DNA from: Buxus sempervirens
Lineage: Eukaryota > Streptophyta > Magnoliopsida > Buxales > Buxaceae
NCBI GenBank assembly: GCA_947561395.2
Contig: OX387190.1
Coordinates: 13,634,858-13,698,857 of the forward strand
Length of the DNA stretch: 64,000 nt
Direction: 5' to 3'
A program made the position numbers and the translations under genes. This document shows positions 6,972-57,489 of the stretch, piece by piece; position 1 is the stretch's first letter, and the number at the start of each line of letters is the position of its first letter. The notes below the pieces were generated by a model, which saw nothing but the letters and a program-made list of their open reading frames with translations, ran no database searches and was not told where the DNA came from.

Positions 6972-7187
6972 TGCCCGTAATTGAAGTACGGGCGTGCCTT
7001 GCCCGTACTTCAAGTACGGGCGTGCCTTGCCCGTAATTCAAGTACGGGCGAAAAACGAATATTTGCAATTATCGCAGATTCGGCCGTACGGGACGCGTGT
7101 CCCGCCGTACAGCGACGCGTGTCTGCTTAGAGAATCTTGCCCGTATTTTAAATACGGGCATGCCCTGCCCGTAATTAAAATACGGTC
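6972..7187 (-). repeat. C0 U3 stem-loop cluster (GCCCGTA / TACGGGC)
   Basis: Five stem-loops have 6-7-bp arms and 7-nt loops. Three of them are perfect: arms 6973-6979/6987-6993 with loop ATTGAAG, 7001-7007/7015-7021 with loop CTTCAAG, and 7030-7036/7044-7050 with loop ATTCAAG. Two further ones lie at 7139-7159 and 7167-7187. Between the two groups is a non-palindromic core (GACGCGTGTC twice) that is kept in C1. Confidence 0.85.
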
Positions 7188-7749
7188 CAGCACGTTTTTA
7201 AAATGTTTGGATTTCAAACCTTTATTCAATTTGGTTTATTGCAAGATTTGTATTCGATTTTTCCGATTATTTTATTAAAAAGCGAGATTCTCTTTATTAA
7301 AATATTATTAAACACATTTATCTTATTTATTTTATTGGTTTATTCCATTTTTGCTGCCTTTTTTGCCACATGGGCAGTTTTCCTGGAACTTCAACTGCTC
7401 ATAACTTCTTCATCTGGTGTCCGATTTCAGCAAACTTAGTGTCGTTGGAACCGGTTTGGAATCACCTATCCACTGGGGTCAAGTTTGGCAGCTGAATTGG
7501 GGTTGAGCAAAAAGTCAACTTTTCGCTCCCCAAAAGTTTGACCGGCTCATAACTTTCTCATCTGGACTCTGATTCCAGCAAATTCAGTTGCGTTGGAATC
7601 GTGTCGAAATGCTATTTTTAATGAGATGAAGTTTGGTGGCCAAATTTACTTAAATCAAAAAGTCAATTTTTTGACCCCTTCAGGATTTGACTAAAAGTTT
7701 GACTTTTCATTTTTTGTCATTTTAGGGGTGCAAAAATCAGGTGTCTACA

Positions 7750-8027
7750 CACTGGGATCAATTTGGGTAGCTAAATTGGGGTAGAGCAAAAAGACAATTT
7801 CTGCTCCCCCAAAAGTTTGATCAGCTCATAACTTCCTAATCCGGACCCCGTTTCCAACAAATTCAGTTGCGTTAGAACCGTGTTGGAATACTTTCTTCAA
7901 TGAGAGGAAGTTTGATGGTCAATTTTTATTGAATCAAAAATTCAATTTTTTGACCCTCCCGGGTTTAACTTTCAATTTGAGTTTTTATTTTCCTCATTTT
8001 TAGGGATGCAAAAATCAGGTGCTAACA
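7750..8027 (-). mobile_element. C0b: 5'-terminal fragment of another family-C LTR
   Basis: It is homologous to 7471-7749 but clearly diverged, and has its own intact terminus TGTTAGCACCTGATTTTTGC (minus strand) at 8027. C0 appears to have inserted into it at CACTG, leaving only its first 278 bp in the window. A local tandem duplication is less likely given the divergence. Confidence 0.6.
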
Positions 8028-8907
8028 CTCGGCATCGGAATATGTTGGATTACCCACCATGTACTTGGTCTGGTTTTTCCCCCGTTGTGTACTCAACGTG
8101 GTTTATTTGGGGTACCACCGTACGCTTTAATGAGACATTGGCTTACATGTGCTTCTTATTGGTCATGCTTATAGTCTACCTGTGACTCGCACCTGAGAGC
8201 TATATTTTGGCCGTGCTTGTAGTACACTCATGGCTTGTACATGTACTGGTATTAGCCGTGTATTGTCATGGATCCATGAATATTTGATCAGACTGGTATT
8301 CCCATTTGTTACTTGATTTGGATTGCACGCGCTAGCCCCCTGTGTACTCAGTTGGGTGATCCGCATTGATGGTTGACGGAGGATGGGGTCCGTGTATCTC
8401 AGCTCCATATAATGTAAGTTCGTGAGGTGGCGACTTGGGCACAGGGAGTAACTCTCGAAGTAATTTTAGTTCATGAGTCTTGTGATGTCATAACATATTC
8501 GTGGTTTGGTTTGAAGAATGCTTTGAATATTATTATCGTGATTTGGTTTTATCGTTATACCTCATGACTTTATTTTTATATAAATTGGACCGTTTTATCG
8601 CATGCATCTTGCTACTTGTTGAGATTTATATCACTCTAGTTTTCACTATTTTTTCAGGTACTCTAGGTGAGATTGACAAACAATGGGGTGTTATGTAAAA
8701 GGGGTAGCCAATAGATGTGAACTAGTTATGAGTTCAAAAACAAATTGTAAATGTTAATATTTTGTTCATGAATATTATTTTATGTTCCGCATAATAACTC
8801 TGATAATGACATGAATAAAGTTTTAAATTATTCTGAATTTTAGTTGCTTTGACCACATACACTAACACTTCGGGGTTGGATAATTGATTCAAAACCAGGG
8901 CGCTACA
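8028..8907 (+). mobile_element. D1: 3' part of a B/D-family LTR, plus strand
   Basis: It ends AACCAGGGCGCTACA at 8907. It is homologous, in opposite orientation, to the start of D2 (32278 and 35130-36012): same ATCAATTATCCAACCCCGAAGTG-like block and same acceptor region (TATTTTTTCAG|GTACTC, AG at 8656-8657). The left part is cut by C0b. It carries stem-loops with the loop TGTACT (see 8058-8098). No ORF of note. Confidence 0.7.
8058..8098 (+). repeat. D1 stem-loops with constant loop TGTACT
   Basis: ACCA-TGTACT-TGGT and CGTTG-TGTACT-CAACG lie about 25 bp apart; a third, CTG-TGTACT-CAG, is near 8340. The loop is constant and the arms differ but pair. D2 carries the reverse-complement version AGATACA (for example GCCG-AGATACA-CGGC near 35948). 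Confidence 0.6.
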
Positions 8908-10889
8908 TATAAAATCTTAGTAAGTAGCAACATGCATGAAAGAAAACAATATATATATATACACACACATATCCTTTACAAACCATTCATGAGTTGCAAA
9001 ACAATATTACAAGCATCGCTAAAACAAGAAGACAAAGCCGTATAAATCAAATCTACAATTGTCTCCAAATTAATACAAACAGTTTTTCCCAAAACAATTC
9101 ATCATGTTAATCGTGTCATTTTAATATTTCCTTTCAAAACTGTTCTTTTCAAAACGTGGCTAAGCCAATCAATCAATCTCTTTCTTTTTAAAAGAAATCA
9201 AATCATTTATAATTATTAATTAAATTTCACGCTCAAATAGTAGCCTATCTTTACCGCAGGATGTAAACACATAGTATCTACACTTCCTCCGTAAGAGAAA
9301 GCAAATCTCTAGACCTCAGGCACCCCCAGCAGGAGATAGCATAACTCAACCGCAGAATATGAATACATAGCACCTACATCTCCCCGCAAAAGATAGCTTC
9401 CTCACCCTCAAGTAGTAACTCACACACCCATCTCCCATGTGGGATGCAACCACGTAGTAATCACATCCCCCCCACATGAGGTAATACATCTCTTCCACCA
9501 AGCAGGTAATACACATCTCTACCACCAAGCAGGTAAAATTAAATCTGGCCACCAAGCCACTATACAAATAATCCACATTGCCATCCATGACATATAAATC
9601 ATTTTATGGTACATGGAAGAGCATAAATCCACAATCAAATTTCGTATATAAAGTAGTTTGTTCATATTTAATCAATAATCTATAACCTCTTGTCAATACT
9701 TATTATATTACAAAACATAGGCTCAACGTACTCAAATCTGTTATAAAAGTATTTCGATAAATTTCAGGACTTGAATTATATCTAAAACAATGTTTTACAG
9801 ATGTAGAAATCAATCAAAATGATTTTAAACAAATTCTAGAACCAAAACTCTCTTTAAATTTAAAACAAGACATATTTCAGTAGAACGTACCCATAACTTT
9901 GTATAATTTTTACAAAATTAATCGACCACAGAAAAAAACTCATAAACACCCAAATCTTATTTGTACATATGTTTGATTTGTCTAAAAATCATTTTCTAAT
10001 ATAAATCTAGGTATATTTCCCAAAATTATAAAATCTGGGTTGGGCGCTTGATAGGGCGCTCAAGCGGTCTTGTCTAGCGATCTTTGAAACAAAATAGAAC
10101 AAATAGGAGCTCAACAGAGCACTCAAGCGATCGTGTTGAGCAGTCAATAATAGAAATAATACAGATGAATCGCTGACATGGTTGCTCGAGCGACCTGTCA
10201 GGAGTTCACGCAATTGCGGCAAAACCTAGAAATCTGATTTCTGTAATTTTCCTCTTTTAATCCTTTAAACCATGATTCCAACAAATCCAACCACTTCTAG
10301 CACATCTAATATTATCTATAAATCATATTAAATCATTCTAAACAAATCAAAGCACAAATTCACTACAAATCTAAATCAAAATCTTAAAAAACCAACACTA
10401 GAGAACATATTTAACAGATTTCATAAACCATATCTAAGATCATTCAAACCCACGAAATCTAATATATAGAATACATGGTTTGGTATCTCAAATCATCATA
10501 TATTAATTCCAGATTAAACTCAAACGATTAACCCTAAAATCATGCAACGATAAAACAAAACGGGGTGTTACTACTTGCATCAAAACGCAAAATCCTTCTC
10601 TTCAAGTTACCGTCGAGATTCTGCTACTATTTCACCCCTCTAGAGACCTTAGAACACTATCTCCACTGTTCAGATTGAAGCTCCATCAGTTGTAAACAAA
10701 ACCCCCAAATTTGAGGCTGATCCAACGGTTGAATCTTTTTAGATCGCACTTTGATGAACGCTGGTAAGAAATTTCTGCAGCACTTTCTCTCTCTATATCC
10801 CCCAAAAGTAAGAGCCCTCATTTCTTCTCCTTTTCCACTATATGACTTGATTAGAAGAAACCCTAACTCCTCCCTAAAGTCTCCCTTTT
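8908..10889 (-). mobile_element. D3: B/D-family LTR, minus strand, left segment
   Basis: It continues at 13518-14106 beyond the C1 insertion. The minus-strand start TGTAATACCCCGAATTTTC is at 14106; a TATA-like CTATAAAAGGGAG lies at the C1 insertion point (about 10885-10894). A GC-type donor GAT|GCAAGTAG is at about 10578 and the palindrome cluster at 10036-10210. Homology to D2 (CTTGCTACTTACT, then ACATGCATGAAAGAAAAC near 8920-8945) stops abruptly at 8908, where D1 abuts, so its 3' end is lost. A dinucleotide run (AT then AC) lies at about 8950-8970. No coding sequence seen. Confidence 0.65.
10036..10210 (-). repeat. D3 palindrome cluster (CGCTTGA / TCAAGCG)
   Basis: The clearest stem-loop has perfect 7-bp arms at 10045-10051 and 10060-10066. 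Related GCTCAAGCGAC/GTCGCTTGAGC words recur to 10210. The same word set lies at the matching place in D2 (40730-40840), D4 (63598-63780) and B3 (53695-53955). Confidence 0.7.
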
Positions 10890-11715
10890 ATAGGTGTGCG
10901 CACCCGATTTCGGGCCGCACGACGAGGTGCATGCGAAGTGATGCTCACCTCGGGACTGATTTGGAGTCGCCACTACCTGAGAGGTGCAGGCAGACACAAA
11001 AGGGGCACTTATTTGGGCCTAATTATTCTGGTCTGCGGCTTTATTAGAGATCTGAGCAAGTTCTCGGTTACGTCTAGGGAAGTCCGAAGACACCCTAGCC
11101 CGCCCCGTCGATTGACAGGTCCCATGGGTCTCCTTGGTTTTGAGTCAACTTAATTCTCACCTAATTCCTAAGCCAGCATGCACACTTATTTGGTCTGGTG
11201 GGGACCGTTGATGGTGTGGGTCCCCTTTTTTATTTGATTTTATCTTTTTATTAAATAATGAAGTGGGTCTGGTATGGGTCCCGCTGGAAGGCCCAGTGGA
11301 ATCCAAGTTGGGCTAAAGTCAAGCCCAGGCCCAATTCGGGTTATTGGGTAACCCTTACTGGATTTTGGCTATTTGGTTTAAAAGTTTATTGAGTATTCAC
11401 AAAGTTAGTGGGTTGAAGTTTTTTAGGGCCCAATGGGCTTGGATTTGGTCCATGAGCAATTAACCAAGTGGCTTTTAGCCCATTTATCAAAGCGGGCCTT
11501 GGTTGGGCCGGACAGGATGTGGGCCCTATTGAGGGGTCCACGAAGCCTTGGTGGGCCGGTTGGGCCCACAATCTCAAAATTTGGCTTGGAATTACCCAAG
11601 AAGCCCAATTGGTCGGGTCAAGTTTAAATGGGTCAGATTGGGTCCAACCGGGTCCGAAAAATTAATTCTTTAAGTTATTTACAGGCTTGACTGCATTTTA
11701 ATCACTGTCTGAACT

Positions 11716-11795
11716 GAACCGTATATTAAACACGGTTCAGGCCAGACCGTATTTCAAATGCGGTCAAGTCTAGACCGTATTTAAAATATGGTTTC
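11716..11795 (-). repeat. C1 downstream stem-loop cluster (ACCGTAT word)
   Basis: GAACCGT and ACGGTTC enclose 9 nt at 11716-11738; two further pairs of type GACCGTA...TGCGGTC and ACCGTATTTAAAATATGGT follow. The stem word is shared with the C1 cluster upstream of its TATA box (12742-12936). Confidence 0.7.
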
Positions 11796-12352
11796 GGCCC
11801 GAATCCCGAAAATGGCTGCGATTTCGATCGGATTTGACTCGCCGATTTCCTTTCGCCGTTTGCCGACTTCCACTGGTGGTTCATGGCACTTTAAAGGGGT
11901 TCAAACTCCCTGCTTTTCGGTTCAAATGTATTCTTTTTTTATGTTCCGCAGAAAGAGAGACTTCAACTCTTTGGGATTCGCTTAAACCATTCATGATCCT
12001 GCATATGTGAGGAAATCCAGAAGGGAGAGAGGGGAAGAATTACGAGGTACAATATGAGTTGAAGAGGACAGGACCCCTCTTTTAATTATAAAATAAACGT
12101 TCCTGCAAAAAAGGATCAGCTTGAAGAATGCCAAATTAGATTCCTTTCTTAGCAAGAATCCTCTCTCCTCCCGTTATTTCGCATGGGAGAACTCCCCTCT
12201 CAGGGAGCTCCGTTTGTATGCAGCAAGTAAACAGGTTAGATAAAAATAATAAAACAAAGGACAGCTTTAAAATGTTAAAATGATCACTTATTCAGAGAAC
12301 TTTGATAGCAGTGTAATACAAAGCTAATTAAAAGCTTACCGTGCTATTATTA

Positions 12353-12353
12353 C
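12353..12353 (-). other. Predicted splice donor in the C1 LTR
   Basis: CCAG|GTAATA on the minus strand, about 370 nt downstream of the TATA box. Every family-C LTR here has a donor at this place: C0 6641, C2 34073, C3 38677, C4 42888, C5 56261. Confidence 0.5.
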
Positions 12354-12721
12354 CTGGTTCTAAGATGTGGAGGTTCTCCGGATGATTTTGGCAGCGCTTC
12401 CGCACTCCCGTTGATTTCCAAAAACGGGCTTGAAAAGAGCCTCCTTATCTTAGGTTTGGAGAGAAGGAAAAGAGGAGGAATTTGGGCAGCACTTCCGCAC
12501 TCCCTTAGATTTCAAAAATGGGTTTGAAAAAGGGGTTCACTAGCTTTCAAGATTGAACGGGTGAAAGGGAAAGGATTAAGCAGGGTCTAAGGGTATTTTG
12601 GGAATAAAATTTGGGTTGAAAAGGGCAGAAGATTTTGGCAGAGTCTGGACGTGGCAAAACTCAAAGAAGGAGAGGGGGGCCATCAAGGAGGCCAGCTTAC
12701 ACAAATGGGGGGGCTGGCCCC

Positions 12722-12730
12722 CTATTTATA
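12722..12730 (-). promoter_or_regulatory. TATA box of C1
   Basis: CTATAAATA on the minus strand, 12 bp downstream of the stem-loop cluster. Confidence 0.75.
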
Positions 12731-12741
12731 GCCAAAATTTT

Positions 12742-12936
12742 CGTGCCTGTATTTGAAGTACGAGCATGCCTTGCCCGTACTTCAAATGCGGGTGAAAAAC
12801 GCACATTTTCAAATCTCGCCGAATCGACCGTACGGGACGCGTGTCTTGCCGTACAGCGACGCGTGTCTCTTCCAAAAGATGTGCCCGTATTTGAAGTACG
12901 GGCATGCCCCGCCCGTACTTCAAATACCGGCGCGCA
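12742..12936 (-). repeat. C1 U3 stem-loop cluster (CCCGTA word)
   Basis: Stem-loops of type GCCCGTA-7 nt-TACGGGC with loops such as TTTGAAG and CTTCAAA surround a conserved core (CGACCGTACGGGACGCGTG). It is the same design and core as C0 6972-7187. Some arms have single transitions. Confidence 0.75.
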
Positions 12937-13517
12937 CGTTTTAAAAGTGGCGGATTTTAAACTCTTTATTAAATTTGATTTTTAAACAGATTTTTATCCG
13001 ATTTTAATGATTATTATATTAAAATATCTTTAGATATTTATTAAAATATTATTAAAAATTAAGATATTTTCTATAAACAATTATTTTATTGATTTTATTC
13101 ATTTATTCTGCTTTTTCCTGCTGTTTTGCCACATGGGCAGCTTTCTTGAAACTTCAACTGTTTATAACTTTTCCGTCCGATGTCCGATTTCAGCAAACTT
13201 AGTGTCGTTGGAATCGGCTCAGAACCCACTATCCACTGGGATTAAATTTGGCAGCTGAATTGGGGTCGAGCAAAAAGTCAACTTTCGCTCCCCTAAAAGT
13301 TTGACCGACTCATAACTTCCTCATCCGGATCCCGATTTTAGCAATCTCAATTGCGTTGGAACCGTGTCAAAATGCTCTTTTTAATGAGAGGAAGTTTGAT
13401 GTCCAATTCTCTTTTGATCAAAAAGTCAAATTTCAGCCCCCTTAGGGTTTGACTTTTTAATTAAAATTTTCATTTTCTGCATTTTTTGGGGTGCAAAAAT
13501 CAGGTGTCTACAATAGG

Positions 13518-16228: not shown

Positions 16229-16330
16229 TGTAGACACCCCAAATTGCACTACAAAATGAGAAAATAATGAAAACATTAATTGGAATTTAAAACAGGCCAA
16301 AAATGCATGAAAATCAATAATTATAGCCTG

Positions 16331-16435
16331 GACCGTATTGTATCTACGGGCTAAGCGCGCCCGAATTTTATATACGGGCACGCAGCGCCCGTAATATATA
16401 TACGGACACCTTTAGACTGTGAATCATTTACGGGC
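16331..16435 (+). repeat. A2 U3 stem-loop cluster (CCGTA / TACGG word)
   Basis: Includes GCCCGTA-ATATATA-TACGGAC and imperfect pairs CCGTA...TACGGG and CCCGAA...TACGGG. Same word as the leader cluster at 19257-19387. Copy in the 3' LTR at about 30412-30517. Confidence 0.75.
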
Positions 16436-16635
16436 AAATCAGACTCATGCGAGTTCTGTTCTTCTCTCGATTTCTGAGCCTTATCTTTAGTCCAATATCC
16501 CTTTAAATGAGCAAATTATATATTTTATTCGTGCAAAATATCTTTGTGGATAAAGGATGGGCATTATCTTGTGTTTAACTCAAACTGAAACTCTATCTTG
16601 CCAAACCTTGGACCAACTATACCCCTGGGTTTGCC

Positions 16636-16644
16636 TATAAATAG
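16636..16644 (+). promoter_or_regulatory. TATA box of the A2 5' LTR
   Basis: TATAAATAG within GTTTGCCTATAAATAGAGGG; the start of R is expected about 30 bp downstream, near 16665-16675. Confidence 0.8.
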
Positions 16645-18037
16645 AGGGCCTTTCCTCAAGCAAAAGGCCACGAAAATTTGAAGTCTAAGGAGCTCCAAGA
16701 GAAGAGAGAAACCCCTACTGCTTTGCTTGCTCAATCCAGGTAAGTACCTTTTCCCTTTATTTCTGTCTTCAATTCTAGATGTAATAGGATCATCTCTATT
16801 GCTGTAGAATAAGTCCATCTTTTGTATCTAGTATTCCTAAACTTGTCTCTAAGTACCTCAAGAGTCTCTCTAGCCGTAAAACGTGAAGAGAGAGCTAGGG
16901 GAAAAGAGAACAGGTGGATCCCTAGAATAGAACCCCATATATGTTTTTCTCTTTTTTTCTAGAATAAAGCCTGTGATTGTGATTGTGTAACCAAACCTAT
17001 CTCAAAGTACCTCAAGAATCCTCTCTAGCCGTAAAACGTGAAGAGAGAGCTAGGGGAAAAGAGAACAGGTGGATCCGTAGGGTAGACCCCCATGTGCTCT
17101 AATCTGTGAGATGTGGCTACTTTTAATATCCTGATCATGTTTTAATGCTTTTTATGATATATCTGAATGAACACATGAATCTATGATGTTTATAGCATGA
17201 GATCCCCACTTTTTTTATAAAATTTGGATTTTCCACATATTTGCACCTACAACACTGTTTTCATGATTTTTTTGATTTTAGGCTAGGATCTTGGATTTAT
17301 CATGATCAATATGGTAGATCTGAATCCAAAAGCCTGAAATTAAATTTTAGGGTTTCATGATATGGTTTTTAAATTGTTTTTCATTATTGAGAGAAGACCC
17401 TACGGTCTAAGTTCTCCCCTTTTGATGTTCTTCATCAACGTGGGTATTTTTGGTTTTTATTTTTTGATTTAAGGTGAAATTTGGGCTATATCTATGTCCT
17501 GGACTATTCAAGTTCAATTTTGAAATATTTTATAAAAATCATATTTTTCTAGATTTCTAGAATTTAACTTGAAGCCAGATTTTTGGATTTTTCACTTTAA
17601 ATTGATTTTATTTGATTTTATCTCAATTTTATTTTGATCATGAAACCCTAGGAATGGTATGATCATATTTGAAAGTTCTGGATCAATCAGGCTATTCGTA
17701 TGAAAAACCATATATTTTTGTCTTTTTTGTGATTTTTCATGAATTTTATAGCAAGCTCTTTTTCTTTGTAAAACATGAACAATGCCTGGCAACCACCTTG
17801 TGTGGATGAATAGGGGTGCCTAACACCTTCCCCTGTTCATAACCTAATCCCCTTACCTATCTCTCGTTGTTTTTTTAGGAGGGTTATTTTTACCCTAAAA
17901 TTGCCTTTTGTGCTTATTTAATATTTTGGTGTCCATTCACACCTAAATTGAATGGTGGCGACTCTTTGTTTAATTTAATCCCGTGTGATGATTGAGGAAG
18001 TCAAAAGGGTTTTTGATTTTTTCCCATGTCTCACAAC

Positions 18038-18056
18038 TGGCGACTCTGCTGGGGAC
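18038..18056 (+). other. Primer binding site of A2
   Basis: TGGCGACTCTGCTGGGGAC begins 2 bp after the LTR end (18035). Tat/Ogre elements usually use the 3' end of a tRNA (tRNA-Arg in described Ogre elements); the tRNA was not checked here. Confidence 0.8.
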
Positions 18057-19256
18057 TTGAGGATTTGAGCCTTTTGGTGTTTGTTCATGTTTTTGATTTT
18101 TTGATTTGCTTGCTATTTTTTGTTCTTAAGCATGTTGAGTATGTTTTAAATCTAAATGATTGCTTAAGAATTCATGGGGGTAGAAACATGCTTAATTTTG
18201 ATTTATAGGATTGTTTCTACAAACATGCGTAGGGGAGGTCCGTTTTGCTGAACCATGTTTATTTCTTGCTATATTTTTATGATAGCATGTTTTAATTTTC
18301 AGCATGATCTCCATGATGAGTTTTGGTGTATAACATGATCAGATGTTTGCATGATTAGATGATTTTTTATGAGCATGTTTTAGGTGCTATAGGATTGCTG
18401 TATTTACTTGTTTATTTTAAATATGCTTTCCTATTATGCCTTGGTTTGTTTATGCATGGCTGCGAAAAGAGTGGCAAGGGTTTGGGACGTTGTGAATGCA
18501 CCTTATTTTTACAATGCACTGTGCACCTTCTATTTTTTACACAGCCTACCCTTAACCTATAGGAAGTTGAACCCGAATGTGTGTAGCTTGGCGCAACGAG
18601 GTCGATACTTCGGAAAGCGAAAGTGAAAACATTCACCTTAGAACTTTGAGCTAATGATGTGATGATAACGTGGATCTGGGATTCTGGTCATCACTAGGCT
18701 TGAGTGCTAAGTTGCCATTAAGCCAAAACCCAAAACCCCTACGCTTGAAGGTGGAGTTACACGTTTTTGGCTAAAATACACAATTACGTGGGAATATGGG
18801 TTTGTAATTGTGGGAAGGCCGTTTGCATGGCTTACAAACCAGGGCATAATGCGGATGCCATATTGAAGGTAAACAAGGTAACAAGGTAATTCTATTGTTT
18901 TGCATTATTTTCATGTCATATGGGTGTCGTGGTGCCCATTGGTTTGGGATAAAATTGGTCCCAAAATATGCAAGTTTGCTAAAATTGGTGCAGCCCATAG
19001 GAAGAGTTTCTAACTCTGTTTAGAATCAATCTTACCCAATGTTCATGCAAGAGTCAACAAAAGGGTACCAAATTCTTAAGTATGGTGTCAATTTGGAGGG
19101 TACATGTACCCTCCCAAGCATATGTTTTTATAAAAAGGTCAAAGTCCACTTTGGGACAGTTTAGAAGCCCTGCACTAGGTGAACCGTACGTTTGGATGAG
19201 CAATCAAAATGATCAAACCATGTAAAAACTGAGAAAACATAAAAGAGTTCCGTAGA
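18057..19256 (+). mobile_element. A2 leader, first part, no supported gene
   Basis: Non-coding leader. Short ORFs (for example 18359-18562) have no recognisable domains, so I do not see the extra ORF1 that some Ogre elements carry upstream of gag. Confidence 0.6.
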
Positions 19257-19387
19257 ACCGTATTTAATACACGGGCTGGGATCGTCTGTATTCGTTATAC
19301 TGGCGGAGCTCGCCCGTGAATGTCATACGGTCACGGCTCGCTCGTAATTTGAATACGGGCAAGGCTGGACCGTACTGTGTATACGGT
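19257..19387 (+). repeat. A2 leader stem-loop cluster (CCGTA word)
   Basis: ACCGTATTTAATACACGGG, GCCCGTGAATGTCATACGG, CTCGTAATTTGAATACGGGC and GGACCGTACTGTGTATACGG are imperfect stem-loops. They use the same word as the cluster upstream of the TATA box, 2.9 kb away. It corresponds to the downstream cluster of family-C LTRs. Confidence 0.7.
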
Positions 19388-19529
19388 TTTCGCGGAAAAT
19401 CCAATTTTAATCAGCTTTTTCCCACTAAATCTTATTCCTTTAACCTTTAAATAATGGTAAAGGGAAATAGGTTTGAATAAAATGCTTCAAAAAAAATAAA
19501 TAAAAAAAAATTGTGAAGAGAAAATCCTT

Positions 19530-20867
19530 GGGCTTCTGAAAGCCTTTGAATTTCAGACTTTTTCTCAAAAACTCCTTGGGCTTCTGAAAGCCTTTGAATT
19601 TCAGACTTTTTCTCAAAAACTCCTTGGGCTTCTGAAAGCCTTTAAATTTCAGACTTTTTCTCAAAAACTCCTTGGGCTTCTGAAAGCCTTTGAATTTCAG
19701 ACTTTTTCTCAAAAACTCCTTGGGCTTCTGAAAGCCTTTAAATTTCAGACTTTTTCTCAAAAACTCATTGGGCTTCTGAAAGCCTTTGAATTTCAGACTT
19801 TTTCTCAAAAACTCCTTGGGCTTCTGAAAGCCTTTTGAATTTCAGACTTTTTCTCAAAAATCCCCAGGCCTCTGAAAGCCTTTGAATTTCAGACCTTTTT
19901 CTTTTGGGCCTCTGAAAGCCTTTGAATTTCAGATCTTTTGGGCCTCTGAAAGCCTTTGAATTTCAGACTTTTTTCTTTTCGGGCCTCTAAAAGCCTATAA
20001 ATTTCATATCTTTTGGGCCTCTGAAAGCCTTTGAATTTCAGACTTTTTTCTTTTTGGGCCTCTAAAAGCCTTTGAATATCAGATCTTTTGGGCCTCTGAA
20101 AGCCTTTGAATTTCAGACCTTTTTCTTTTGCGCCTCTGAAAGCCTTTGAATTTCAGATCTTTTGGGCCTCTGAAAGCCTTTGAATTTCAGACTTTTTTCT
20201 TTTTGGGCCTCTGAAAGCCTATGAATTTCATATCTTTTGGGCCTCTGAAAGCCTTTGAATTTCAGACTTTTTTCTTTTTGGGCCTCTGAAAGCCTTTGAA
20301 TTTCAGATCTTTTGGGCCTCTGAAAGCCTTTGAATTTCAGACTTTTTTCTTTTGGGCCTCTGAAAGCCTTTGAATTTCAAACTTTTTTCTTTTGGGTCTC
20401 TGAAAGCCTTTGAATTTCAGACCTTTTTTCTTTTGGGCCTCTGAAAGCCTTTGAATTTCAGACCTTTTTCTTTTAGGCCTCTGAAAGCCTTTGAATTTCA
20501 GATCCTCGAGCCTCTGAAAGCCTTTGAATTTCAGACCTTTTTCTTTTGGGCCTCTGAAAGCCTTTGAATTTAAGATCTTTGGGCCTCTGAAAGCCTTTGA
20601 ATTTCAGACTTTTTCTAAAAAAAAAAAAAAAACTCTTTGGGCCTCTGAAAGCCTTTGAATTTCAGACTTTTATCAAAAATCCTCGGGCCTCTGAAAGCCT
20701 TTGAATTTCAGACCTTTTCCAAAAATATCCCTGGGCCTCTGAAAGCCTTTGAATTCCTTTGAATTTCAGACCTTTTCCAAAAATATCCCTGGGCCTCTGA
20801 AAGCCTTTGAATTTCAGACCCTTTTCAAAATTCCCCCCTGGGCCTCTGAAAGCCTTTGAATTTCAGA
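19530..20867 (+). repeat. Leader minisatellite: about 32 copies of a hairpin unit
   Basis: The core TCTGAAA-GCCTTTGAA-TTTCAGA is a stem-loop (7-bp arms, 9-nt loop). The first seven units have a long spacer with CTCAAAAACTCCTTGGGCT. From about 19870 units alternate short (ATCTTTTGGGCC) and long (ACTTTTTTCTTTTTGGGCC) spacers, giving a dimer-like higher order. Several unit variants (TCTAAAA, TTTCATA) break the stem. A 122-residue minus-strand ORF across it (KSLKFKGFQKP repeats) is only a translation of the array. It lies inside the putative intron. Confidence 0.92.
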
Positions 20868-21052
20868 TCATTTTCTCTTTATTGTGGAACCTATTGGAAG
20901 CCCTAGAATATTCCAACAATTCAAAGAAAAAAAAGAGAAAAAGAAGCAAATAAAGAAATAAAATCCAAACTTGTGTTCACCCAGCTTGCACATAGGCATT
21001 CCTAGGCATGTGAATGAGATTAATTGGGCACTGATTTTTTTATTTTTTCCAG

Positions 21053-21105
21053 GTACTAATACACTTGCAATAATAGCTCCTGTAACCAGATCAAGAGCTC
21101 GCGCC
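21053..21105 (+). other. Spliced leader end before the gag start
   Basis: 53 nt between the acceptor and the first good ATG, conserved with A1 (6508-6456). The open frame extends upstream from a TTG at 20971, but that part is intron. Confidence 0.5.
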
Positions 21106-22069
21106 ATGAATCCCATTGAAGACGAAGCTGATGCTCCTCATCCAGATGTTGTCCTGCTCCAAGAACAAGTGGCAGGATTAGCCCGAATGCTAGAGAACAT
21201 ATTGTCCGTGCAGGCCCAAAAAATGCAGGCCCAGAACCAAGCATCCACTTCCAACCCTGCACCTCCACCCCAAATCAATATTCCACCTCCAGTGCAACCA
21301 ATTCCTGAACCCGTCTATGAACCCACCCCTGAACCTATACTGATCAGGGATGAGACAGCTGAGTCAAACAAGGCTAAGGAAAAGGAAAGGATAAGGGAAG
21401 AGATTGAAAGAAAGTTCCTGCACAAACTGGAAATGATCCAAGATGAACTTAGAGAAGTAAAAGGGGTGAGCAACTTCGGGGGCACCAACTTTGAGGACTT
21501 ATGCCTGTATCCTAATGTTAACCTGCCAGCTAAGTTCAAGTGCCCAGACCTAGACAAATATGATGGCACTGGCTGCCCCATGAGCCATCTAAAGTTGTAC
21601 TGCGGTGCCCTATGGCAGTTTGGGCGGGATGAGGGTGTTCTGATCCAGCTCTTCCAAAGGAGCTTAACTGGAACCGCCTTGAGGTGGTTCGCTACTCTAG
21701 ACCATGGAAAGATTAGAAGATGGAAGGACCTAGCAGATGCCTTCCTAGCTCAGTACCGGTTCAATTCAGAGATCGTGCCAGATAGGTACGACGTAATGAG
21801 AATGAGCAAGGGAAGGGATGAATCTGTGAGACAGTATGCCAAGAGATGGAGGGAGACTGCCTCTCAGGTCAGGCCACCTATGCTAGAGCAAATAGATGAT
21901 TTCCACTTTCATCAGCACATTGGGTCAACCATTCTACAGCCATTTGGTGGGTCAGACAACCACTAATTTTGCTGCCTTAGTTCAAGTGGCTGACCGAATT
22001 GAAGACGGGATAAGGTCAGGTAAGATAATTGACCACTCTGCCATGGTTAGTCAACAAGACCTAATCTGA
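21106..22069 (+). pseudogene. gag: A2 gag (capsid part), two compensating indels
   Basis: Structural Gag of a Tat/Ogre-type element; it builds the cytoplasmic particle. It starts MNPIEDEADAPHPDV at 21106, conserved with A1. A coiled-coil-like VVLLQEQVAGLARMLENI is followed by a proline-rich stretch and the retrotransposon gag domain (FEDLCLYPNVNLPAKFKCP, GTALRWFATLDHGKIRRWKDL, AQYRFNSEIVPDRYDVM, REYAKRWRE-like segment). Compared with A1 there is one extra base near 21893, so the original frame stops at 21964-21966. The shifted frame (TLGQPFYSHLVGQTTTNFAA) runs on to TGA at 22067-22069. A second indel near 22065 returns to the frame of the next ORF. Truncated products only. Confidence 0.88.
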
Positions 22070-22122
22070 AGAAAGGAAGCGGGATTAAGAAGAATGGGAA
22101 CAAGAAAGAAGGGAAGGTAAAC

Positions 22123-24306: not shown

Positions 24307-24340
24307 CATCAATCCATTCCAAAAACCCAAATCCTCAACC

Positions 24341-38967: not shown

Positions 38968-38977
38968 ACAAACTTAA

Positions 38978-39228: not shown

Positions 39229-39257
39229 CAAAAAATTACGGATTTGCCCCTCGACTT

Positions 39258-41437: not shown

Positions 41438-41460
41438 GAGCGGTTTCGCCCGAACCGCTC
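41438..41460 (-). repeat. C4 downstream hairpin
   Basis: GAGCGGTT (41438-41445), loop TCGCCCG, AACCGCTC (41453-41460): eight perfect pairs, 7-nt loop. Confidence 0.85.
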
Positions 41461-43185
41461 TGAGTATGCGGTTTGGGCCCAAAAAACCAAGAAAGGCCAA
41501 AATGGCCTCGGGATTTAGCTCGGCTTCTCTCCAGGGTATTTCAGTAGTCATGTGGGCCCCTGTGTGGGCCCACAGTGGTTCAGGGAATGGGGGATCTCCC
41601 CACTTTGGTTTCTCTTGGGATTTCGCAGCAGGGAAATGAGGGGGAGCAGGGGAGATTGCTTCCTTTCCATTGAGCCACCTACAGCAGCTAAACAGGGACC
41701 AAGTAGTCCCTGTTTTTGCCGTTTAATCCACACAAACCAGCAAGCTTAAAAGTCAACGAGAATCCCTCAATTCAAGGCTTAACATCTGCTTTAGTCCTAG
41801 ACACGCACACGCATGCTTTCACACACACTATGCATGGGGCAGAAGTGTTATGAGGTTTGCTCATGCTAGGACAGCAAAGGGCATGGGGTAAGGGATCATG
41901 TTAACACTATCAAAACAGCAAACAAATAGATACAAAAAGTAACATGTTACTAACCCTATTCAAAGGCATGCCAAAGGATGGAAATAACCCAAAAGGATGT
42001 AGGGAAAAGAGTCCTTCATGCATGGCTCTATTGGGTATAAAGTGGTAAGAAAGGAGAACAAGACTGCTGCTGTCTCCTACAGCAGCTCTCGTAGGTCATC
42101 ACCCGAGGGATTACGAGGTGAGGGGGCATGCTAAGACCTTAGCACAGTAAACAAAGAGAGGAAAGGGAACATGTTAATGCACATTCAACAAAAGAGATGA
42201 CACGCCGATGAATGAATCAACAGCATGTTAACGACCTGGACAGCAACCAAGTGAGGGGGAAAGGGAGCATGCAGTAAATTAAGACAATAAAATACAAAGA
42301 AGGGGGGCGGGGCGGGGGGGGGGTGCTATTGTCACCCACAGCAGCTCCAGATTCCATGGTGAAGGGAGGTACAGGGGAGATATACATCCCAGAAAAATAA
42401 AGGAAAGAAACCTCACCCCAACTCATGCATGCCTTGCCACACACCAAATACCCAAATCTGCACATCCAAGCACGCATCCACCATGGCACACAAAGGGAAG
42501 AGGACACGACCAGCAAAGGAACACCCAGAAAAATTACGAAAAAAGTTGAGAAAAGAGAAAAATCAAGAAGGGTAATGGAGGGTTATTTCAAGGGTACATT
42601 AGATGAGTTAACTGTGGGGAACATGCTCCCTCAATAATGAAGCCAACCATACACAAACTACAACAGCAAAAGTTTAAAGATGTACATTAGAAACTTCTCA
42701 CTCTCCCTTGAAAATAAGTGTGCTTCCTCTTTTACCTTTGGACTACTTCCAGGCTATGAAATGGATAGTGAAGGCATGGAGATCCCATGGAAAAGTTGCT
42801 TAAAACCAACTAGAGACTACATCTTCAAACGTCATGCAAAGAGACCCATTTTTATATATGTAGCGTAAAAGATGGTGACGAACAATACCTGGGGGTTTTA
42901 GGACCCTCTTGAGGTGTGTAGACTCCCCTTTGAGGTAAAACAATAGCTAGACAGTCCTTTTCCAGCAACAACAGTAGATATACCTCCTCTTGTTGGGGTA
43001 AAAATGAAGAGGAAGAGGGAAAGGAAGGGTTGGAACCACCTTAAGGTGTTGTAAGGGGGTTATGGAAGCAAAAGGAAGGTTTTCGGATCAGAGGCAATGG
43101 GGGAGAAGCAGTGGAGATTAGCCAAGAGAAGCCAAACTCTGTCCCATGTTCGGATTTTGCTTTCATAAAAAACTAGGACAAAACC

Positions 43186-43350
43186 GCATACTTAGTACAG
43201 TTTGGTCGAAAATGAATAGTAACCGCACATACTGTGCGGTTTGGTCAAAACCGTAAGGTATGTGCGGTTTTGGCCCGGTCTTTTCAGCAATGATTAGGGG
43301 ACAAACTCGCGCAGGCACAGTCTGACGCACCATGCAACCGTACTGTAAGT
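43186..43350 (-). repeat. C4 U3 stem-loop cluster (AACCGCAC / GTGCGGTT)
   Basis: AACCGCAC (43221-43228), loop ATACT, GTGCGGTT (43234-43241), perfect; flanked by decayed copies AACCGCATACTTAGTACAGTT and AACCGTAAGGTATGTGCGGTT. Confidence 0.8.
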
Positions 43351-44859
43351 ACAGTTACTTTCAGATTTGCCTTTTTCTCTCCCCTTTTTTGGTTGAGTTG
43401 ACTGTTGGGGCAACTCAGCTGCCCACTCGGACGAATTAGACTTCCCCAATTTTTATTATTTCTCATTTATCTTAATTAGTTCAATTAAGATATTTCAACT
43501 TTGCCCTTGGGACTGTTTTGCTCATATCTTCTCCATTCAGGCTCCGATTCTAGCAAACTCAGTTGCGTTGGAACTGTGTCGGGATTCTCTATCCACTGGG
43601 ATGAAGCAAGGTGGTCAATTATCAGTTGATTAAAAGTCAACTTTTGCCCCCTCAGGGTTTGACCTTTCAGCTAGGGTTTTCATTTTCAGCAATTCTGGGG
43701 GTGAAAAAATGAGGTGCTGACACCGCAATTGCACTTGAGCATTTACGACCACTCATGCAAAACTTTAGCATATTTTCTGGGTTTTTTTATTTTCTGAAAT
43801 ATAAAATATTTTTTATAGTTTTAATTGTTTCTAACCATCATAACTTCATTCTAAATCACTTCTAAAACAATTCTAATCTATTCTCATCAATTATATATTG
43901 ATCTAAAATTTCGTACTTAAATAAATCTTTTATGATCATCACTTTTCTTGATTTCTATTAAAGTATATGAAAACAAAACCATCTTAGAATATTCTCAACA
44001 CTTTAAACCAAGATCTGAATTTAAACAAACCAAGATAAAACATCTAAATTGTAGCACCCCAGAACCAGGTCTGCCCTATCACGGCATTGACCCATCCTCG
44101 AGACCTACTTATGAGCCCGAAAGAACCTAATTAATACAATTAACCTGACAATTACAAGTAATCATCAGAGTGCATAAGCTAAAGAAGCGTGGAATACAAA
44201 ATTTCCATCATCACCTTTATAATAACTCCAAAAGATGATATCTATGTATACAAAAAGGCAACTAAGATGCTCACAATCTCTCTCTCACATGTATATTCAT
44301 ATACAAAGGTGATAATCTAAAGGTAGCTCTCAAGTTTATAAGTCCAAAAGGAATATTTACAATCCCATTTATAGTTTCAAAAACTAAAGACAATAACATC
44401 ACAAGGAGAATCCTACTATGGGTGGTAGTAATAGTCCTCGGGCCTGTAATCTAGATCTCCCTCAATCTCTGCTCCAATATGTGACTCACCAAGAGGATCT
44501 GAAAACAAATCCGGTAAAACAAAACATGCGTGCGATGAAAGTCCCAGTAAGCAACAAAAATGCATGTATAGAAACAGTTTATGCAGTTTTATAACATCAT
44601 GATAATATTCACATAAAGCGTAAATCTCAAGTCAAAGTATCTCAATCAGATAACACATGAAATTAGTTCAATAAAAGTAATCAAATACTGCAAGCATGTC
44701 TTGTTAGGACTCGTGGGTTAGCGTGTCTCTAAATTAGATTAATGACCACTACCCATTTGCCACCTACACGACTTATAAAGAGAGGCCTAGTTAGGGATAT
44801 CTCAGCAAGCGCATCATCTACATATGGGCTGGCAAGTTACAACCAAACTAATAATCAAG

Positions 44860-53955: not shown

Positions 53956-55338
53956 CAGCAAATCCGACTTCCAAAATCGAGTTTTTATGCATCAAACTAC
54001 ATATACAAATCACTCTAATATCTTCAATACATGTATATATCATACTTCCAAATCATGCTAGACGATTAAACCTTAGTAAAACTCAGTCCTCGAATAAACA
54101 GGTATGCTACCTACCTCTGTTCGACCAAGTTTCCTTCTTCCTCCTCAAGTGTAGATGATGATCTCTCTCTTTACAACAACACGGAACTCCTTCTAGGATG
54201 AAGAATGCCTCAAAATCAATGAAGCTCTCCGTCTCCTTCTCTTCTCTCTCGGTCTCTCGTTTCCTTCAGCCGTCAGAGAATACAAGACAATACGATTAGT
54301 ATTCTCTTAAGTATTCTCTCAAGTATTGAACCCTATTTTAATCTCATGATTCCATGTATCTCATTTCCATTAAATCCTAAACTACTAACCAATCAGATTA
54401 AAAGATAACCTTAAATTAATACTTACTTCAATATCTCATGATCCAACGGTTAGATTTGCATCAAACTCCTTATCTCTTTCATCAATGTGATCACCTATAT
54501 TTATAATTACAATCCATCAGAAAAATCCCCAATAAAATTGTGTGCACCTGATTTCGCACGACGAGGCGCACGTGGGATGTGTGTCACGGGACATTTCGGA
54601 GTCGCCACTGCCTGAGAGGTGTAGGCAGACACAAAGGGTGCCTATCCGGGCTTAAAGTTTCTGGTTTGCGACTTATTAGAAATCCTGGCTAAGTTCTCGG
54701 TTACGTCCAGGGAAGTCCGAAGACACCCTGGCCCGCCCCATCGATTTGACGGGTCCTTCGGGTCTCCCTGGTTCGAGTCAACTTATTCTCACCCAACTCC
54801 TAACCCAGCATGCAACTTATTCAATCTAATTGGGGACCACTGAAAGTGTAGATCCCCTTTAATTTGATTTTATCTTTTTTTATTTCCTTTTGACTGAATG
54901 GGTAGGGTACGGGCCCCGTTTGAAGGCCCTCTGGTAGTCCAAGTTGGGCTTCAAGCAAGCCCATGGCCCATCAGGGTTATTGGGTAACCCGTATTAGATT
55001 TAGTTATTTTGTTTCAAGTTTGATTAAATATTTACAAAATTAGTGGGTTAAGGCTTTTAGGGCCCAATTGGCTTGGATTTGGCCCATGGGTAATTAATCA
55101 AGTGGCCTTGGGCCCGTCTATTGAAAACGGGCCTTGTTTAGGCCAGATTGGATGTGGGCCCCGTTGGAAGGCTTACAAAGCCTTGGTGGGCCCGAGCGGG
55201 CCCACAATCTCAAAACGGGCTTGGAATGATCCACAAAGCCCAATTGGTTCAGTTTATGTTAAAACAGGTCAGATTGGGTCCAACCAGGTCCAGGGAATTT
55301 ATTTTTTTAATTCATTCTGAAAATTTACTGCATATGAA

Positions 55339-55361
55339 ATGCGGTCTAGCCTAGACCGCAT
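55339..55361 (-). repeat. C5 downstream palindrome
   Basis: ATGCGGTCTAG (55339-55349), one base, CTAGACCGCAT (55351-55361): eleven perfect pairs. Confidence 0.88.
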
Positions 55362-56521
55362 TTAATGTGTGGTTTGGCCAATTTTCCGAAAATGGCTGGA
55401 ACGCCGGCCAGATTTGGCTCGCCGGTTTCTTCTCATTGCCCGCCAACTTCTGTAGCCACCGGTATCTTCTTAGATATGATCAAATGCTCATTTCGAGCTC
55501 AATCTCCTGTCTTCATCACACCACTCATGTTTGCTTTGATTCAATCAACATAAGAACTAAATAAACACACAACCATGTATGAAATCTCTGCAACTAGTAA
55601 ATGAGATGAACTAGTCAAGAAACCAAAACATGATTCAGGCAAAGAGTTGAAAACATTAAAAAGATAACTCCAAACAAAACATGTGCTAGTGGTTGAGAAG
55701 GAGGAGGTGATCCTCAACATTTGTTTAATTAAACACACAATAAATCTGTGACAAACAAATATAAGTGTGTGCTATGTGTTGTGTTCTTGTTAAAAATAAA
55801 GTGAATGTAAGAGAATGAAATCACATGTGCGTGCTCCTAGTGTCCCTACCACCTACATGCATGAATATGGATGTGAGTAAGACATGTTACAAACCTGCAA
55901 ACACATATGGGAATAACAAATAACTTGCTCCACTTGAAGGGAAAGAGGGGGTAAGAGTATTAGGGGTACATGAGATCAAAGAGAAAGGACAAACTCCTCT
56001 TAAAAGAACACTACTAGCGACCGGAGGGTAAGCAAAACCTGCTTTGGTAACTTCCTTAACTACATCGTTAACATGAATCTCGTCTCGCCTTTCAGGTGGG
56101 ACTTCCCCCTCGCCATGGGGGAGCCCAATATCATGAACAACAAGCACAAATAGGTGAGGAATAGGTAGCAGAATAGACAGTAAAAGAGAACTTATTTCAG
56201 AAAAAATCAGATTTAATATATATCGAATACATTGTTACCAGGAGTATTACCTTGCTATTACCTTCCCTGTAGGAGGTGTTTTGATCTCCAGGAGATGTGG
56301 GCAGCAACTCGAGAGCCTTCCCAACTCCAGAAATCAGATTTTCTGTTTGCTTTGTGTGAAAAAATGGAGAAAAGGAGCAAAGGAAAGGCTAAGAAGGGTA
56401 TTTTAGGGATCTAAAAAGAGTTTAGATGGATGGGTGAGCTTCAGGGTGGTAGCAGGTCGCCAGAGCAGCAAGGTAACGACAGGGTTCAAAGGCCTTTTTT
56501 CAAACAATGACTGCTGGGGCC

Positions 56522-56530
56522 TATTTATAG
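56522..56530 (-). promoter_or_regulatory. TATA box of C5
   Basis: CTATAAATA on the minus strand in GCCTATAAATAGGCC. Confidence 0.75.
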
Positions 56531-56696
56531 GCAAAAAAGTCTGGAACCGCATTTGAAGTGCGGTTCGGTCAAAACCGCACTTCAAGTGCGGTTGCTCTTG
56601 AATTGCACTAAAAGTGCAAAAACTGCACTTAAAGTGCAGTTGGCATTTAAAACATGCGAATCTGCCAGCTGTCACCATTGGCGACGTGTGGCTAGC

Positions 56697-56705
56697 TTCT
56701 AGAAG
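56697..56705 (-). promoter_or_regulatory. Heat-shock-element-like TTCTAGAAG, C5 copy 1
   Basis: An inverted TTC/GAA pair about 170 bp upstream of the TATA box; second copy at 56813-56821 next to a G-box CACGTG (about 56801-56807). Function not shown. Confidence 0.5.
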
Positions 56706-56812
56706 GTCAGAACCGCACTCGAAGTGCAGTTCAGACCAAACCGCACTAAAAATGCGGTCGCGTGAATCTGTGCGAATCTGCCAGCTATCGCCAGTTGGGG
56801 ACACGTGGCAAG

Positions 56813-56821
56813 CTTCTAGAA
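56813..56821 (-). promoter_or_regulatory. Heat-shock-element-like TTCTAGAAG, C5 copy 2
   Basis: Same motif as 56697-56705, in the second copy of a duplicated promoter block; adjacent G-box core CACGTG. Confidence 0.5.
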
Positions 56822-57489
56822 GATTAGAACCGCATACGAAGTGCGGTTCAGACCAAACCGCACTCAAAATTCCGTCGCGCACGTTTTTTAAATGCTGGAT
56901 TTGAAATCCTTCTCCAATTTAGTTCAATTCCGGATTTTTATCTGATTTTCTCTTTTCTTTTCCATTTATTTTAATCACAAAAATCAAATATTTATTATTT
57001 TTAATAATAAATGAAAAGAATTTTTATTTATTTTGTCCTTTTCTGCTTTTTCGCCACACGAGCAGTTTTTCTGAAACTTTGAATTGCCATAACTTTTTCA
57101 TATGATGTCTGATTTCATCAAATTTAGTGGCGTTGGAATCAGCTTGGGATTCCCTATCCACAAAGCTAAAGTTTGGCAGCAAACTTGGGTTTTGGCATAA
57201 ATCCAATTTCTGCCCCCCTCAAGTTTGACCAGTTCATAACTTCTTCATCTGGACTCCGATTTGAGCAAACTCAGTTGTGTTGGAGTCGCGTTGGAATTTC
57301 CTTTTCAATGGGAAGAAGTTTGGTGGTTACTTTGCATTTGATCAAAAAGTCAATTTTTGGCCCCCTCAGGGTTTGACTTTTTAGATTAGAATTTCATATT
57401 CTGCACTTTTGGGGCTGCAAAAATCAGGTGCTGACAAAAATAATGATTATTATTTAATTAAAATTTCTGCAAATTTTCGGGGTCTTATA

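Follow-up and report, generated by a model that had tools for sequence, protein, structure and literature searches.

The window analysed here is a 64,000-nt stretch of the Buxus sempervirens genome (GCA_947561395.2, OX387190.1) that contains the retrotransposon A2, an A1 LTR and several C-type LTRs, all with clusters of short inverted sites (Table 1). In A1, A2 and the C-type elements, the cluster unit is a pair of inverted CCG/CGG half-sites at a fixed 14 bp, CCG-N11-CGG, and the neighbours of the CCG core are family-specific (GCCCGTA, AACCGCA, GTCCGCA, TATCCGG and ATCCGA). The two LTRs of A2, about 1.8 kb each, are 97.9% alike, and no relatives of the A2 RT were found in virus and prokaryote collections. 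No plant-mobile-domain (PMD) gene was seen in the A2 and C elements of the window, and the antisense PMD gene pieces described below have no match in A2 (16229..32121).

Table 1. Elements of the window and their half-site arrays
Feature	Position	Strand	Half-sites and surroundings	Basis
A1 LTR array	962..1064	-	8 phased half-sites, GCCCGTA/GTCCGTA/GACCGTA, ~205 bp before TATA	
C1b (partial C-type LTR) upstream arrays	6975..7185	-	GCCCGTA; nearest CGG 19 bp before TATAAATA	
C1 LTR, solo	10895..13511	-		5-bp target-site duplication ATAGG
C1 downstream array	11719..11779	-	GACCGTA/AACCGTA	
C1 upstream array	12775..12917	-	Mainly GCCCGTA	
A2 element	16229..32121	+	Ty3/gypsy order gag, protease, RT, RNase H, integrase	
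A2 5' LTR array	16333..16433	+	GCCCGTA/GACCGTA/GTCCGTA, 205 bp before TATA	
A2 leader array	19258..19386	+	Mixed GACCGTA/GCCCGTG/AACCGTA	
A2 3' LTR array	30414..30515	+	One 15-bp step in place of 14	
C2 LTR	32289..35131	-		
C2 downstream array	33089..33177	-	GTCCGCA	
C2 upstream array	34368..34553	-	GTCCGCA; last CGG 19 bp before TATAAATA	
C3 LTR	36013..39813	-		Target-site duplication 4/5, ACAAG/ACGAG
C3 downstream array	37039..37106	-	TATCCGG and GATCCGG; distance between dyads 25 bp (14+11)	
C3 upstream array	38978..39228	-	TATCCGG; last CGG 19 bp before TATAAATA	
C4 LTR	40928..43723	-	No TATAAATA found	
C4 downstream array	41427..41473	-	AACCGCA/AACCGCT	
C4 upstream array	43221..43272	-	AACCGCA, one AACCGTA	
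C5 LTR, solo	54539..57436	-		Target-site duplication AAAAT
C5 downstream dyad	55337..55363	-	GACCGCA	
C5 upstream arrays	56544..56864	-	AACCGCA; last CGG 20 bp before TATAAATA	

An earlier, sequence-only reading of this DNA described the clusters as stem-loops. The clusters are present and exceed chance, but the stem-loop was the wrong unit: the 14-bp CCG/CGG register is what stays fixed, whereas stem and loop vary. In the window, CCG>CGG pairs number 40 at 14 bp and at most eight at each other spacing from 3 to 44 bp, except for a harmonic of 27 at 42 bp; CGG>CCG pairs number 25 at 14 bp and at most nine at any other spacing. The CCG>CGG count at 14 bp was above the maximum of 200 dinucleotide shuffles in all nine element stretches, and the corresponding CGG>CCG count was zero in C3 and merely equalled the shuffle maximum in C1 and the A2 3' LTR. 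The remaining 40.6 kb of the window has no 14-bp excess (1 and 2 observed, 0.6 and 0.6 expected). Genome-wide, dyads of four words occur 20,506, 11,284, 3,733 and 487 times (per strand, at any allowed spacing), compared with 0, 61, 3 and 1 when the pattern is reversed, and among the matches listed the 14-bp register is kept at 197 of 200 dyad places. The GTATCCGG dyad, longer by one base, occurs 12 times.

Counted by eye, the last CGG lies 19–20 bp from the TATA box in C1b, C2, C3 and C5. The distance is 162–205 bp, not 19 bp, in the ATCCGG-family and A LTRs, and no obvious promoter follows the second array within the C LTRs. The claim of a cluster just upstream of the TATA box does not hold for C4, which is without TATAAATA, nor for A2, with its ~205 bp.

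The two clusters of one element share their word, as the sequence-only reading had proposed. In the six window elements, the permutation test gave p=0.0028 for core clusters (720 permutations) and p=0.0083 for all phased sites; in four of the six, a cluster's best match was the other cluster of the same element, C1 and C5 being the exceptions. In a sample of 20 LTRs (five from the window and 15 fetched), word agreement was 0.69 within an LTR versus 0.35 between LTRs (p=5e-5). The value was again 5e-5 for 17 LTRs, without three that had been picked for showing both arrays; it was 0.00055 for 13 C1-like LTRs and 0.00175 for ten of these, without the same three. The upstream window of C4, which has no TATAAATA, was placed by hand. 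L018, which has no downstream sites, was left out, as were downstream sites past or near a conserved GGACC(C/T)GG block, and the GTCCGCA loci L039–L044, which by the criteria used gave no match to C-type LTR ends, fell outside the sample.

On trees built from the LTR flanks, 380 bp on the 5' side and 560 bp on the 3' side, the words interleave. Differences between elements are less regular than was claimed, with C4 and C5 both using AACCGCA despite their distant LTRs, and the single word ascribed to C1 is common to its clusters as CCGTA, but mostly in the form GCCCGTA upstream and GACCGTA/AACCGTA downstream. Sharing at -2 and -1 is loose in GCCCGTA LTRs, whose downstream array reads GA, AA or GC. 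The surrounding LTR is better conserved than the words over about 600 bp at each end (61–92% per 100-column window in C1, C2 and C5), whereas its middle hardly aligns. Excess sharing within LTRs is concentrated in the half-site: it is 0.49–0.54 at positions -2, -1 and +1, weaker at +2 and +3, merely 0.08 and 0.05 at +4 and +6, and -0.02 to 0.05, not significant in the per-position test, at -5, -4, -3, +5 and +7. Because sharing is concentrated at -2, -1 and +1, whole hairpins were not simply copied, and this candidate explanation is disfavoured. Within one element the words of the arrays tend to change jointly, which would be expected if each family had a DNA-binding regulator of its own.

Relatives of about 20 kb carry a PMD extra ORF that was not found in A2, and in them arrays of the family's own word also lie upstream of antisense PMD genes. 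Antisense gene A matches DUF7745 (5e-17) and PMD (6e-13), and gene B matches PMD (1e-13). At the antisense promoters of loci L012 and L016 the last CGG is likewise 19–20 bp from the TATA box, counted by eye; in L048 and L049 the promoter of gene A lacks a TATAAAT at 19 bp. In the AACCGC family, an exact AACCGCA dyad lies 211–214 bp upstream of gene A in all six scored copies within the listed range, or in five of five without L049, which had been picked earlier by its word; on all five fetched LTR sides of this family, the sites in clusters of at least four read AACCG (71/76) or GACCG (5/76). Of six pieces chosen for having two same-word dyads 4.7–7.1 kb apart, two (L048 and L049) contain gene A and four do not. 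Choosing pieces by same-word dyad pairs favours equal words, so the six-of-six (or five-of-five) count is the cleaner one.

The dN/dS ratios of the antisense genes are 0.06–0.30 (each gene part compared in a single pair of copies, ATCCGG family), and judged by these substitutions the genes are under purifying selection. The comparison of rates was confined to the ATCCGG and AACCGC families, because L048 has a stop codon in its gene A piece and its neighbour L057 yielded no integrase. Between the two families the integrase is 93% identical, gene A 62–74% and gene B 51–55%. Genes A and B could be diverging fast, although this is one family pair with dS saturated or undefined, and relaxed constraint also fits. 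A protein database search with gene A gave 1525 candidates, none at E<=0.001, and an AlphaFold model of gene A exon 1, from five alignment rows, had a pLDDT of 42.

The arrays might instead be read by one family of host transcription factors that recognizes 14-bp CCG dyads, with flanks drifting and units copied between arrays by slippage, template switching or gene conversion. CGG-CCG cores occur also in the unrelated Ty1/copia Sireviruses, which a shared host factor would explain, and in C3 an upstream dyad has most of its loop in common with a downstream one, as unit copying would give. Such copying should, however, also spread the spacer letters, where the excess is small or not significant, and a fixed host factor gives no reason to expect the recognition letters of separate promoters to change jointly; we regard this account as unlikely, though the strongest of the alternatives. 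Rather less probable is cassette exchange, in which the block from upstream to downstream array recombines between elements and the words travel together without co-adaptation. It would accommodate the interleaving of words on both flank trees and the fact that the part of the middle held in common averages 37% among AACCGC LTRs and 16% between AACCGC and GCCCGT LTRs. The middle between the arrays is nevertheless a patchwork: L032 (AACCGC) and L025 (GCCCGT) have 5' flanks that are 86% alike, 3' ends that each resemble C1 at 86–88%, and a middle of which 65% is shared, at 74%; even so, their upstream word differs and their downstream word largely differs. The word match also reaches antisense-gene arrays kilobases away.

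RNA stem-loops in the genomic RNA, serving dimerization, packaging or, as proposed for Sirevirus palindromes, the production of small RNAs from hairpins, seem very improbable. The dyads would fold, maize Sireviruses have palindromic regions to which small RNAs are drawn, according to the reports available in part (PMC10760457, PMC5311732), and the outer letters (-5 to -1) of adjacent CCG>CGG arms match slightly more often than those of other pairs in a cluster (0.58 versus 0.46), as a hairpin would also give. Against this, 25 of the 65 14-bp steps in the window run CGG>CCG (although in C3 and the ATCCGG family that step is 25 bp), stem and loop vary under a constant register, and the arrays precede TATA boxes of opposite promoters. 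RNA helices are further disfavoured by a rough count of core changes, with 81 on a single arm (an upper bound that includes array ends) and, among eight double changes, one compensated and seven uncompensated. Base-pairing between the two sites, which the sequence-only reading had offered beside a common binding partner, is disfavoured on similar grounds: sharing stops near the half-site edges, core changes are rarely matched on the other arm by the same rough count, and in several cases the arrays stand 19–20 bp before LTR and antisense TATA boxes. What fits these sequences best is a common binding partner whose recognition is element-specific, and this interpretation withstood the refuting conditions that the sequence-only reading had set.

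The clusters are thus probably double-stranded DNA operator arrays, read by a family-specific and likely element-encoded regulator for which PMD proteins are the leading candidates. The half-site would be about 7 bp, nn-CCG-n(A); all families would have the CCG core, while the letters at positions -2, -1 and +1 would be specific to each. Half-sites would face each other over 14 bp, the next dyad following 14 bp on or, in some families, after 25 bp, a step longer by roughly one turn of the helix. We infer a regulator that binds as a dimer array and occupies the dyads at the LTR promoter and, in the ~20-kb relatives, at the antisense gene promoters as well, so that each element would form one regulon. 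Since the recognition letters change jointly at a family's arrays, this regulator must be family-specific and would most likely be element-encoded. The antisense PMD proteins may regulate the LTR as well as their own genes, by activation or anti-silencing, and solo LTRs and PMD-less copies such as A2 may be controlled by them in trans. More tentatively, the antisense PMD proteins of Ogre-type retrotransposons could be sequence-specific regulators whose family code consists of CCG and three variable letters, set in an inverted register of 14 bp, each family controlling only its own LTRs and antisense genes; switching of the code might then allow escape from cross-regulation or host silencing.

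Giant plant retrotransposons retain conserved antisense genes whose function is a puzzle, and the reason for their retention becomes directly testable by asking whether each PMD protein binds the word of its own family. The code can be read from sequence, and thousands of copies are present. If the PMD-regulator reading is true, retrotransposon-encoded PMDs gain a function, and Sirevirus palindromes, VANC motifs and PMD proteins would be linked as self-recognition codes of mobile elements.

The Ty3/gypsy carrier, the fixed register, the tested joint change of words and the antisense-gene arrays are new relative to the Sirevirus and VANC systems, the closest known. VANDALs are DNA transposons, and VANC is, to our knowledge, not a PMD protein. 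VANC motifs, as far as the available part of the source describes them, are short, family-specific and repeated in the non-coding regions of several genes per element, their binding was seen by ChIP-seq and EMSA, and the VANC protein has highly variable regions (PMC5735166). The Buxus word is likewise family-specific and common to several non-coding regions of an element, but VANC motifs have a single orientation whereas Buxus half-sites alternate and are inverted, and VANC binds its motif whereas the Buxus antisense proteins match PMD/DUF7745 and are candidate binders. The sequence-only reading, which took VANC as the nearest idea, was mistaken in calling its motifs neither paired nor word-swapping, since they occupy several non-coding regions of one element and are not the same in the targets of VANC21 and of VANC6 (PMC5735166, in the part available), and it missed the closest precedent, the CGG-CCG repeats of Sireviruses.

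Sirevirus RM boxes are reported to be palindromic, with a CGG-CCG core in 12 of 13 listed elements and element-specific flanks; one cluster precedes the TATA box of the LTR, nine elements have a second cluster of the same motif upstream of ENV, and classic retrotransposons are said to lack them (PMC2829016, Bousios et al. 2010, in the part available). The Buxus arrays have the same palindromic form, core and element-specific flanks, and stand shortly before the LTR TATA box in C1b, C2, C3 and C5, at 162–205 bp elsewhere. However, Sireviruses are Ty1/copia elements whereas A2 is Ty3/gypsy by its pol order (RT, RNase H, integrase); their RM consensuses are compact with a varying CGG-CCG distance, and the accessible text of PMC2829016 describes no 14-bp alternating register. 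Their second cluster precedes ENV, whereas the Buxus one is part of the LTR or leader or accompanies antisense PMD genes. The host PMD proteins MAIN and MAIL1 are required for expression of genes with the promoter motif 'DOWN' and so, as in our reading, are tied to promoter-motif genes; in the accessible parts of these sources DOWN is a single motif (CATGCAGTTT for MORC1), direct binding to it is putative, and no CCG arrays are described (PMC7156037, PMC9899485). In Retand, non-chromovirus gypsy elements, antisense genes between pol and the 3' LTR are proposed DNA-binding regulators, as in the Buxus relatives, but have another domain, Transposase_28, and no promoter arrays in the text available (PMC11963269). 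PMD genes within Ty3/gypsy elements are common to the Buxus relatives, the Gypsy-encoded PMD clades (PMC5418596) and Ogre, in which 57% of elements have a PMD extra ORF (PMC6317226); the available portions of these two sources describe no promoter arrays or binding words, which in the Buxus relatives accompany the antisense PMD genes.

The unit that defines the clusters in the window is CCG and CGG facing each other at 14 bp; the sequence-only reading had described them as stem-loops, and stem or loop length is not their defining trait. In the window, CCG is followed by CGG at 14 bp 40 times and CGG by CCG 25 times. Repeats of one triplet on the same strand at 28 bp number 20 and 22, the 42-bp harmonic occurs 27 times, and with few exceptions the remaining spacings to 44 bp have single-digit counts. 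Shuffled sequence gives a mean of 0.02–0.41 14-bp pairs per element, the window outside the elements has no excess of such pairs over shuffles, and LTR C3 contains no CGG-to-CCG pair at 14 bp.

The 64-kb window belongs to a genome of 676.5 Mb in 247 contigs. This was searched with patterns for four words (letters flanking the CCG core) that permit many spacings, and the first 50 places per word, all on genome contig C1, were taken; the 14-bp register is present in 50/50, 50/50, 49/50 and 48/50 of the matches listed. An 18-bp register, with four extra bases, is rare (3/200 of the matches listed) and is possibly an alternative spacing. Dyads of GTATCCGG with one extra base number 12 in the whole genome, and in the young GTATCCGG family the dyad period is 39 bp (14+25), the 25-bp step being 14 bp plus about one helical turn.

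Long-LTR Ty3/gypsy elements are abundant in the window. The two LTRs of A2 are 97.9% alike, and C1 and C5 are solo LTRs, because perfect 5-bp target-site duplications stand at the LTR ends. The middle of the C1, C2 and C5 LTRs, between the two arrays (about 0.8–2.0 kb from the LTR start), is hardly alignable, both ends being about 61–92% alike; among C1-like relatives it is a patchwork.

Features in the window (positions without prefix) and in pieces from elsewhere in the same genome (L-prefixed; G000, genome)
Feature	Position	Strand	Remarks
A2	16229-32121	+	gag, protease, RT, RNase H, integrase, gypsy order
Family C		minus	LTRs 2.6-3.8 kb
A2 leader tandem repeats	19503-20879		units of ~75 bp; leader array on one side, gag on the other
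G-patch-like stretch	22051-24303		21.7 bits, cut-off 22; same ORF holds A2 protease region
Apparent chimera of families C and A, or a deletion that fused them	478-8032	minus	C-type LTR start, TATA, ~400 bp, A-like gag (84.6% aa to A2), A-type pol-3'LTR region, A-type LTR
18-bp register	G000 C1:7015674, C1:20498695, C1:20565732
Array preceding gene A	L012:3441-3572		counterparts in L006, L009, L016
Array upstream of gene B	L007:1081-1211
Mixed-word array	L021:5587-5739		ATCCGG, GCCCGT, GACCGT, GACCGG, others

The element-dependent letters lie at −2, −1 and +1 around CCG (GC..T, AA..C, GT..C, AT..G and AT..A). The claim that both clusters of an element carry the same word holds in the window, where they agree above random pairs (p=0.0028 for core clusters, 0.0083 for all phased sites), C1 and C5 each having their best match in a cluster other than their own partner. 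It was borne out in the larger sample that the sequence-only reading had called for: in 20 LTRs, five of the window and 15 fetched from the genome, the latter nearly all picked by an upstream-array dyad (137 upstream and 86 downstream sites in total), word agreement is 0.692 within and 0.351 between LTRs (p=5e-5). Leaving out three LTRs whose selection rested on both arrays showing among the matches gives 0.699 and 0.356 (p=5e-5). For the 13 C1-like LTRs alone the values are 0.595 and 0.401 (p=0.00055); with the three picked LTRs removed, the remaining 10 give p=0.00175 (+1 alone, p=0.016; +2 and +3, p=0.073).

Nor do the words simply track phylogeny. GCCCGT and AACCGC LTRs are intermixed on the 5'-flank and 3'-flank trees, the former pairing L033 (AACCGC) with C1 (GCCCGT) and L036 (AACCGC) with L030 (GCCCGT), and L032 and L025 differ in word despite similar flanks and a largely similar middle. 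The C3-like LTRs C3 and L019 have ATCCGG at both arrays (with one ATCCGC in C3), L024 has ATCCGA at both, and L021 has ATCCGA at 3/4 and 2/2 sites. Beside the latter LTR lies a mixed-word array, possibly a transition state.

Simple copying of one array from the other is unlikely to be the source of this sharing, because copied arrays would have matching spacers too: the within-LTR excess sits mainly at −2 (0.49), −1 (0.54) and +1 (0.54), falling to 0.27 at +2 and 0.14 at +3, with small residues at +4 (0.08, p=0.024) and +6 (0.05, p=0.012), and is not significant at the other five positions tested. Restricted to C1-like LTRs, the excess is 0.43, 0.28 and 0.26 at −2, −1 and +1, and 0.15 at +3, with none at +2. 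The clusters probably do not act as RNA either: adjacent CCG-to-CGG partners agree more often at their five outer letters (0.58) than other pairs do (0.46), as pairing arms might, but core changes are, by a rough count, mostly uncompensated between arms.

In C1b, C2, C3 and C5, 19–20 bp separate the last CGG from TATAAATA. Among the 13 C1-like LTRs this distance is equal within 2 bp in eight and 14 or 28 bp greater in three, which fits a degenerate last site; in 2/13, TATAAATA was not found by the pattern used. The array lies 162–205 bp from the TATA in ATCCGG-family and A LTRs.

Among the GTATCCGG matches listed on contig C1, LTR arrays about 20 kb apart have one internal array between them, directly preceding antisense gene A, a DUF7745/plant-mobile-domain (PMD) gene; at the two loci inspected (L012 and L016), TATAAAT follows the last CGG at 19 bp. 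Gene B, another antisense PMD gene, has a further array some 1 kb upstream of it, with no TATAAAT at 19 bp. The AACCGC family (L049) has the same layout with its own word, and the GTCCGC family (L048) has an array of its own word ahead of gene A, both without TATAAAT at 19 bp. The AACCGC family has 5551 candidate places for gene A, of which 150 were scored; all 6 of the scored copies that fall on contig C1 inside the stretch spanned by the word matches listed have an exact dyad 211–214 bp upstream. Five of these elements were also read on their LTR side: of the 76 sites grouped in clusters of at least four, 71 are AACCG and five are GACCG, two isolated two-site matches having other words; 4/5 have two arrays of four or more sites there, the inner being assigned by position to gene B. 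Both antisense genes evolve under purifying selection (dN/dS 0.06–0.30, from one copy pair per gene part in the ATCCGG family), and between the ATCCGG and AACCGC families they outpace integrase (dN 0.22–0.42 vs 0.04, dS being saturated or undefined).

Judged from sequence, in one genome and from the first places listed on one contig, the arrays are most likely family-specific DNA operators of an element-encoded regulator. The PMD proteins are the leading candidates for the binder, given their presence, their conservation, their rapid divergence between word families and the arrays ahead of their genes; we infer the identity of the binder and the sign of regulation alike. LTR and antisense-gene arrays of one word may then constitute a candidate regulon.

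A recent preprint reportedly describes modules of PMD proteins and DNA motifs. The combination of Ty3/gypsy elements, a strict 14-bp register, word change that a test shows to be coordinated, and promoters of antisense PMD genes was not found in the literature searched, which excludes most subscription journals and preprints; the novelty would lie in that combination, Sirevirus RM boxes and VANC motifs being known precedents. The host PMD proteins MAIN and MAIL1 tie PMD proteins to a promoter motif, according to PMC7156037 and PMC9899485. VANC motifs resemble the Buxus arrays in being family-specific with a multi-site logic, and Sirevirus RM boxes resemble them in having the same core, element-dependent flanks, a position at the TATA and one more cluster, ahead of a different gene.
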